From NCBI GenBank assembly GCA_003599575.1, contig QZKV01000039.1:1-64000 (forward strand): a stretch of 64,000 nucleotides of DNA, written 5' to 3'. The position numbers were made by a program, and so were the translations under genes. Below are positions 32,473 to 33,468 of the stretch, piece by piece; within the stretch, counting starts at the first letter, position 1, and each line of letters starts with the position of its first letter. Below the pieces are notes generated by a model. It worked only from the letters and a program-made list of their open reading frames with translations, did no database searches and was not told where the DNA came from. This DNA is from Desulfobacteraceae bacterium. GTDB taxonomy: Bacteria; Desulfobacterota; Desulfobacteria; Desulfobacterales; Desulfosarcinaceae.

Positions 32473-33171
32473 TTATTTCCTCGGCAGCTTCCAGAAGGGA
32501 CCCAGCCCGTTCAAGGCTTTAACGAATTCCCCCAAATATTCCTGCATATGCGAAGCGTAGCCAGGATCCAGTCTCCTGGTAAAGAGCTCGCCCGAAAAGA
32601 GACCGGTGATCGCCGGCAGTTTGTTGATGCCTTCTTCGGTGCCCGGCTTATAGCCGCGCCAGTTGCGGATATGCTCTTCCGACCGGAAGAGATTCATGGT
32701 GCTTCAGGAATAAGGCAGATTGTTGAACCAGTCTCTGAAAGGAACGGACGTGTATGCGACGATTCCCTGCGGCTCGGCCTTTTGAATCGAGCCGTCCTTC
32801 ATCTCCACTATGATGGGCGAACCGCAATCCAGGCAGGGCGCATCGATCTGTACTGTCTGTCCAGGAAAAAGCCAGCTGACCGCCAGCGATTCGAAGCCTC
32901 ACTGGGCGGTCCACTTCTGCTGACCGTCGATCGTAATGCGGTATTGGGTGGGAATATTACTGAAGGGCGGGAATGAACCGATATAATCGGTGCCCGAGGC
33001 CAGCCAGCCGGGAAAGCCCGGCGAATAGAGCTCATGCAGCAATTTGCGACCGTCCTCCACCGGTACGTCCATTTCGGCGGCGATCTCCGTGTAGTGGGGC
33101 GCCTGGCCGGATTCCATAAAGCGCCTCATGATGACCTGGAAAACCTTGTCCAGGGAACTATGTGCGTTCAT
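32473..33171 (-). CDS. MerB-like (alkylmercury lyase family) selenoprotein candidate with two in-frame TGA codons
   Basis: One frame of 233 codons runs from ATG 33171 (AGGAGG 6 bases upstream) to TAA 32475-32473, interrupted only by TGA at codons 91 (32901-32899) and 156 (32706-32704). The N-terminal part is a winged-helix-like segment (HYTEIAAEMDVPVEDGRKLL). The rest aligns with MerB. Codon 91 falls where MerB has catalytic Cys96 (W-x-x-C-x-x-(D/E)-x-L), with Glu94 at the MerB Asp99 position. Codon 156 falls where MerB has catalytic Cys159, just before STMNLFRSEEH. The spacing is 65 residues against 63 in MerB. A CxxCG motif lies between them. Twelve bases after the second TGA is a perfect hairpin with a GGTC loop, typical of a bacterial SECIS. 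The family cleaves carbon-mercury bonds, but the substrate here is open. A pseudogene with two stops is the alternative; the otherwise intact frame argues against it. Confidence 0.8.
32674..32691 (-). promoter_or_regulatory. Putative bacterial SECIS element for the second TGA
   Basis: On the minus strand CTCTTCC-GGTC-GGAAGAG forms a perfect 7-bp stem with a GGUC tetraloop, beginning 12 bases after TGA 32706-32704. The distance and GGU-containing apical loop match the requirements known for SelB recognition of E. coli fdhF-type SECIS elements. Confidence 0.7.
32875..32887 (-). promoter_or_regulatory. Possible SECIS hairpin for the first TGA
   Basis: On the minus strand GCTG-GCGGT-CAGC lies 11 bases after TGA 32901-32899. 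The loop contains GGT, but the stem is only 4 bp and its extension is imperfect, so it is weaker than the downstream element. Confidence 0.4.
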
Positions 33172-33468
33172 AAGACCCTCCTTTTCGGTTGTGTCCGATG
33201 ATGAAACCCTTCTAATTCGGTTTTCTCCGTCCCGGAATGGGGTCGATGATGTATTTGAGGTGCACTGCCCGATAACCCCTCTGGGTCGACAGCTTTTGGA
33301 GATCATCGCCAAGCAAATAAGTGACGAGTGATTAATGCTGTTCCAAGGAAGTTCTTTGAGGATAATGGCCGTCGCATCCGCAAGCCGGTTCCGCCTTCCG
33401 CCGGCCGCCACAGCATTCTGGACCGTTGCTCGCCTGCCTGAACTTTCAGGCAAGTTTCCGAAAGTAGA

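Follow-up and report, generated by a model that had tools for sequence, protein, structure and literature searches.

A MerB-family gene with in-frame TGA codons at both catalytic cysteine positions and its predicted dual-selenocysteine relatives

Does a minus-strand frame that is broken by two TGA codons encode one protein with two selenocysteine (Sec) residues, and what would such a protein do? The frame lies in the window, the whole 64,000-nucleotide stretch of Desulfobacteraceae DNA analysed here, and the first-pass annotation had described it as 233 codons with a strong ribosome-binding site, TGA codons 91 and 156 as its only interruptions and a resemblance to MerB with both catalytic cysteines replaced. 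The frame is as described: the read-through product has 232 residues and ends at a TAA codon, TGA91 and TGA156 are the only in-frame stops, and the ribosome-binding site is present upstream of the ATG (Table 1).

Table 1. Positions of the MerB-family gene, its mapped parts and the hgcAB pair of the same genome (G000).
Feature	Position	Strand	Basis
MerB-family gene with two in-frame TGA codons	32473..33171	minus	Frame, Pfam match, homologues
Shine-Dalgarno AAGGAGGG	33176..33183	minus	Sequence; 3' end 4 bases upstream of ATG
TGA codon 91, predicted Sec, MerB Cys96 position	32899..32901	minus	Frame; family and PDB alignments
Glu94 codon, MerB Asp99 position	32890..32892	minus	Family and PDB alignments
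SECIS-like hairpin 1, 17 nt past TGA: loop GGUCA at 32877-32881, stem of 6 bp	32871..32887	minus	
Cys113-x-x-Cys116 motif, nearly invariant within the subfamily	32824..32835	minus	Family alignment
TGA codon 156, predicted Sec, MerB Cys159 position	32704..32706	minus	Frame and alignments
SECIS-like hairpin 2, 19 nt past TGA: loop GGUC at 32681-32684, stem of 7 bp	32674..32691	minus	
hgcB and hgcA, side by side	contig C11:17211-18521 (L218)		HgcA motif Cys ordinary

The read-through protein scores 74.6 bits against the MerB model PF03243 (Pfam curated cut-off 27), and its predicted fold is that of MerB. Its AlphaFold2 model, computed from a 49-row family alignment, has a mean pLDDT of 93.7, and all 11 PDB fold matches of this predicted model with E <= 0.001 are MerB chains (best E 1.2e-10), with TM values normalised by query of 0.48-0.61 and identities of 18-23%. 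Searched against the PDB, a profile built from 49 family members retrieves MerB2 (2.1e-13) together with four MerB sequences. The more specific MerB equivalog and exception models NF009710 and NF033555 are not reached, the scores being 33.5 and 25.3 bits against cut-offs of 193 and 200.

The active site of MerB consists of Cys96, Asp99 and Cys159, as described in the available part of PMC4525700. When the protein is aligned to solved MerB chains, with MerB residues numbered by counting within the alignment, codon 91 falls at Cys96 and the Glu of codon 94 at Asp99. Codon 156 aligns with Cys159 of the C160S chain and with the equivalent Cys of MerB2; in the wild-type MerB chain the alignment gap is shifted by one place and codon 156 lies under Cys160. 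The two sites are 65 residues apart here and 63 in MerB, and the placement of both TGAs and of Glu94 proposed in the first-pass annotation is thus borne out. The catalytic triple of Sec, Glu and Sec would be chemically similar to that of MerB and non-identical to it.

In-frame TGAs at these positions could also be Cys codons that have decayed in a pseudogene or been misread in sequencing, as TGA is one substitution away from TGC or TGT and frameshifted copies of the gene exist elsewhere (L199, L201, L210). The distribution of the TGAs among relatives bears on this directly. A search of genome contigs finds 16 homologues at 54-68% identity, all of which have TGA at site 1; the site 2 TGA is in frame in 15, the other (L025) being frameshifted between the sites. 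More broadly, a PF03243 search has matches in 55 of the 389 class genomes and in 50 of the 395 phylum genomes. The family alignment holds 117 distinct MerB-family sequences, mostly from the same phylum plus a few named records; it leaves out three Sec/Sec genes already counted (L012, L013 and L015, which are those of G279, G283 and G239), the identical duplicates L016 and L021, four matches without stops (G684, G696, G515 and G688 C33), a short TAG-interrupted match (G028) and a 41-residue fragment (G009 C13). At sites 1 and 2 the 117 sequences are Sec/Sec in 85 cases, Cys/Cys in 20, Cys/Sec in six and partial or frameshifted in six, and no intact Sec/Cys form is seen among them. The homologues therefore carry TGA or Cys at both positions, and the 85 that keep both TGAs in the same columns, with the frames between them intact, argue against decay and misreading. 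Several of the Sec/Sec genomes (G239, G279, G283 and G660) consist of one contig each, which counts against an assembly fault.

The 85 Sec/Sec sequences fall on the tree into three divergent clades, none of which contains a Cys row. Type A (n=51) includes the window protein, has a Sec spacing of 65-68 and a branch support of 100/97, and is spread over 23 families and 30 genera in the sample. Type B (n=7) has a spacing of 62-63 and type C (n=27) of 74-75, both with support of 100/99, and type C proteins have a longer N-terminus when complete. These types were first assigned by the TGA-TGA distance, which makes type A Sec/Sec by construction; that type A is uniformly Sec/Sec is claimed on the basis of the tree, in which the clade of 51 is free of Cys rows. 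The tree gives two changes to the Sec/Sec state, which may be a single one. Nearly all type A members have Glu at the Asp99 position, and a CxxC motif is near-invariant in the type where MerB has a single Cys. Sec/Sec genes are carried by 46 of the 389 genomes of the sampled class (two of the 46, G369 and G383, by partial genes), and type A or B occurs together with type C in eight of the 72 genomes or records holding Sec/Sec.

Several departures from this pattern are seen. L182 (G730 C171) is a Cys/Sec form nested in a Cys/Cys clade, with L204, L205, L207, L142 and L163 as relatives, and some of its Cys/Cys kin can still fold a similar site 2 hairpin; a recent exchange between Sec and Cys that left a relic SECIS element is possible in this group. 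L201 (also L025), L199 and L210 are frameshifted or partial dual-Sec copies, one of them in a single-contig assembly (G369), and reflect either real decay or sequencing indels.

A further line of evidence comes from the sequence past each TGA. The bacterial SECIS model in PMC13188914, in the part available, has a loop of 3-9 nt with a G among its first two nucleotides, a stem 4-16 bp long, a UGA-loop distance of 16-37 nt and a minimum free energy of at most -7.5 kcal/mol. Hairpins were judged with our own script of this published model rather than with bSECISearch itself, and SECIS-like hairpins are found past both TGAs, as the dual-Sec reading would have it. Hairpin 2 agrees with the model in full, with a bare hairpin energy of -9.1 kcal/mol. 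Hairpin 1 fits in loop, stem and distance, and its bare energy of -7.3 narrowly misses the limit of -7.5; folding 55 nt at this site gives -11.2 kcal/mol. By single-sequence folding, the 55-nt folds of the two TGA regions in the window are no better than those of shuffled sequences (z 1.34 and -0.49).

The signal is clearer when the family is compared. GGTC is present at +22 past site 2 in 51/51 type A, 26/27 type C and 3/7 type B sequences and in 0/20 of the Cys/Cys relatives. At site 1 GGTC lies at +20 in 37 of the 51 type A sequences, and also in four of the 20 Cys/Cys relatives, and type C has a different hairpin there, whose loop is CGTGC and lies at +29 in 24 of the 27 sequences. Bare hairpins of -7.5 kcal/mol or below occur at sites 1 and 2 in 2/51 and 30/51 of type A and in 18/27 and 3/27 of type C, compared with 221 of 4665 control codons (4.7%) and 5/20 of the Cys/Cys relatives at site 2. 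With a cut-off of -6 kcal/mol, picked after seeing the results, the type A counts are 50/51 and 51/51 against 400 of 4665 controls (8.6%), and nine of the 20 Cys/Cys relatives also pass at site 2; type B hairpins are weak, with 1/7 and 4/7 at this cut-off.

Codon choice is constrained in the same regions. Of the type A columns 77 are conserved, and the ten most codon-constrained of these (residues 164, 163, 95, 96, 162, 98, 165, 157, 94 and 97) all lie within ten codons past a TGA. All 51 type A sequences use TCG for Ser164 and CGG for Arg163. Excess homozygosity averages 0.36 past site 1 (seven columns) and 0.34 past site 2 (nine columns), compared with 0.04 elsewhere. The stretch that would form hairpin 2 doubles as the coding sequence of the conserved FRSEE. 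Type C sequences alternate between CGG-TCG and TGG-TCA, and the silent change in the second codon preserves the loop-closing pair; hairpin 2 covaries in this way. Across the 85 Sec/Sec sequences this pair in hairpin 2 is C:G in 60, T:A in 19 and T:G in one, the five unpaired cases all being type B; the best type C tree has five switches of the pair, only one of which is forced by well-supported branches. The family thus offers a coding stretch (FRSEE or FWSEE) apparently shaped by the RNA hairpin to be formed. The synonymous constraint past each TGA, together with conservation of the TGAs themselves, leads us to reject both the pseudogene and the sequencing error, which we regard as extremely improbable; the earlier argument that this is not a dying gene holds.

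For both UGAs to be read as Sec the genome should encode the Sec pathway, and the first-pass annotation had pointed to selA, selB, selC and selD as the genes to look for. All four are present in the window's genome, an assembly of 197 contigs that is 98.67% complete with 6.93% contamination: SelA scores 605.7 bits, SelB 373.6 and SelD 377.2, and selC is a tRNA-Sec with anticodon TCA. Three genomes of the same genus (G005, G006 and G009) likewise carry both the dual-Sec gene and SelB. Across the class a SelB match at 1e-55 is uninformative as a predictor, being found in 39 of the 46 Sec/Sec genomes and 340 of the 389 overall, and the seven Sec/Sec genomes without a match are multi-contig assemblies of 60-93% completeness (the SelB and HgcA result lists were read by eye). 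The selD gene (contig C20:25980-26906, L212) contains one in-frame TGA, and the SelD of this genome is likely itself a selenoprotein. A candidate ferredoxin gene with two TGAs elsewhere in the genome (contig C51) was rejected, as it proved to be the end of one gene followed by the next.

Altered tRNAs that read UGA as an ordinary amino acid are known elsewhere, and UGA might be read here as Cys or another such residue through an altered tRNA or code. The entire Sec pathway, with the one TGA in the genome's own selD, stands against this, as do the Sec-type hairpins downstream of the TGAs and the use of TGA as an ordinary stop, which ends 14 of the 41 mechanically chosen window ORFs of at least 150 aa. 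We consider such a reading very improbable, and the in-silico evidence that both UGAs would be recoded as Sec is strong. The PF03243 match, the site conservation, selABCD and the hairpins together support the dual-Sec MerB-like reading of the first-pass annotation, and it is highly probable that the window gene encodes a functional dual-Sec protein of the MerB family that handles organometals or soft metals, irrespective of which metal this is.

A plausible scenario for such an enzyme, by analogy with MerB, begins with SelB and tRNA-Sec recoding each UGA, directed by a separate hairpin that lies shortly after it within the coding sequence. Sec91 and Sec156 would then grip the metal of an organometal, Glu94 would donate a proton to the carbon and free the hydrocarbon, and the metal would be left between the two selenolates, to be handed on to thiols. 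That the bond cleaved would be C-Hg and the substrate mercury is likewise our inference from MerB.

The genomic link to mercury is as follows. The window's genome encodes HgcA (423.3 bits) with the sequence NVWCAAGK, which we take to be the HgcA motif, with HgcB adjoining (Table 1), and is predicted from these genes to be a mercury methylator. HgcA is found in 29 of the 46 Sec/Sec genomes of the class, compared with 135 of the 343 others (Fisher p 0.004, a comparison that ignores relatedness and genome completeness, and in which positives are matches at E<1e-100 for Sec/Sec genomes and come from the over-cut-off total of 164 for the rest). Within the genus it is found in four of four Sec/Sec genomes and none of seven others (p 0.003, again ignoring relatedness), two of the seven being only 64-73% complete; counting a partial match in G003 gives one of seven (p 0.015). 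Because hgcAB is present in the same genome and hgcA is enriched in Sec/Sec genomes, methylmercury is a plausible substrate and the likeliest single one, which these associations suggest and do no more.

The flanking genes show no corresponding pattern. Among 1341 neighbouring ORFs of 119 loci, called mechanically and with two of the loci being duplicates, no shared partner gene is seen, with neighbour clusters reaching at most six of 53 type A loci; the HgcA motif is absent from the 119 loci and the neighbour clustering revealed no adjoining mercury gene. Eight neighbours of the window gene were matched to Pfam, as cupin, RibD_C, MaoC/hydratase, SDR, thiolase, a ChsH2 zinc ribbon (also with a weak ketosynthase match) and two acyl-CoA dehydrogenases. 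The window gene lies 3' of a minus-strand run of MaoC, SDR, thiolase, ChsH2/ketosynthase-like and acyl-CoA dehydrogenase genes, which we take to be unrelated to it, and the dual-Sec gene seems to stand alone. Among other loci, five of 27 type C loci (L086, L095, L192, L193 and L196) have a small gene (~150 aa) upstream on the same strand, and seven Cys/Cys loci, such as L048, have a gene of a 272-aa type about 14 bases upstream.

Two or three dual-Sec MerB genes are present in each of G346, G077, G354, G434, G463, G524, G689, G469, G759, G284 and G172, which hints that paralogues within a genome have different substrates. A real dual-Sec protein might accordingly act on something other than organomercury, such as methylated As, Sb, Sn, Te or Pb, or might merely bind or transfer soft metals, a reading that departs from the organomercury one in substrate alone. 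Up to three paralogues per genome would suit several substrates; HgcA is missing at E<1e-100 from 17 of the 46 Sec/Sec genomes (including G347, G352 and G324, which have partial matches only and were counted as negative), and the change of Asp99 to Glu in nearly all of type A and the CxxC in place of the single Cys of MerB point the same way. Against it are the preserved catalytic order and spacing of MerB, the predicted MerB fold and the finding that no adjoining gene indicates another metal. We regard a substrate other than organomercury as a tentative but real possibility.

The broader proposal is that these genes represent a large and previously unrecognised set of dual-Sec carbon-metal lyases, of at least three divergent clades, that occurs widely in deltaproteobacterial anaerobes, predicted mercury methylators among them, and that they provide a Sec-based route of methylmercury demethylation in organisms that make methylmercury; we would put the chances of this evenly. 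The set would have been missed because ordinary gene finders split each gene at its two UGAs. If it is correct, Sec has taken the place of the entire metal-gripping Cys pair in an enzyme, which would allow a direct test of what selenium contributes to carbon-metal bond cleavage. Anaerobes carrying hgcAB would then own a selenium-dependent route of organomercury breakdown, and surveys for merB based on uninterrupted reading frames would miss such genes, which are present in 46 of 389 genomes of the class.

It remains to place the window protein among known systems, the closest of which is SaoL. The first-pass annotation knew of no established MerB selenoprotein, which is right for forms with two Sec residues as far as the searched literature goes, but SaoL, a MerB-like organometallic lyase with one Sec and the motif CU, is listed as a selenoprotein in Table 1 of the 2026 review PMC13188914. 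That table is said to hold 119 families and subfamilies, and in the part available it has no two-Sec MerB. No dual-Sec MerB was found in the literature searched, whose scope does not extend to two Haft papers cited by PMC13188914; the available text of PMC2398784 does not mention MerB, and the searched terms have zero occurrences in PMC5029168 and PMC12013277. The Sec/Sec representatives P0001, L077, L091 and L137 match no model of NCBIfam release 20 at its cut-off.

Could the window protein be a divergent SaoL? Both belong to the MerB superfamily and are predicted selenoproteins, the best NCBIfam match of the window protein is SaoL (NF040728), and SaoL has Sec at the position equivalent to Cys159. 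The latter is seen in L140 of the same genus, which scores 165.2 bits with the SaoL model; the match ends one residue before the L140 TGA, which places the SaoL Sec at site 2 and Cys at site 1. The window protein scores 44.2 bits, below the cut-off of 140, L140 with its Cys at site 1 falls outside the type A clade (support 100/97), and the residue before the second Sec of the window protein is Ser, which departs from the CU motif. The SAO system is described in PMC13188914, in the part available, as an operon with six selenoprotein genes, and no such operon, with its ABC transporter and other selenoprotein genes, is seen among the eight scanned neighbours of the window gene. Membership of SaoL is therefore rejected on score and tree and is improbable. 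G005 holds both forms, a SaoL (L140, C6, Cys/Sec) and a type A dual-Sec MerB (L208, C9).

The window protein can thus be set beside four kinds of known protein. It shares with MerB (PF03243; PDB 3f0o and 1s6l) the predicted fold and a catalytic set in the same order and with nearly the same spacing, and differs in having predicted Sec for Cys96 and Cys159, Glu for Asp99 and an extra Cys in the CxxC. MerB2 (PDB 5c17) is its best sequence match among solved structures, but has Cys at both sites and, in that alignment, Ser at the Asp99 position. MbdU, MduS, TsoB and FrhD/VhuD, as listed in the available part of PMC13188914, are like it in having more than one Sec in a prokaryotic protein; they are other families, absent from the three NCBIfam matches of the window protein at E <= 10. 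SaoL differs from it in having Cys at the first site and in being, by name, part of the SAO system, whereas the window protein has predicted Sec at both. With a single-Sec MerB relative already known in SaoL (PMC13188914), the new part here is the predicted Sec at the first site, and hence at both.
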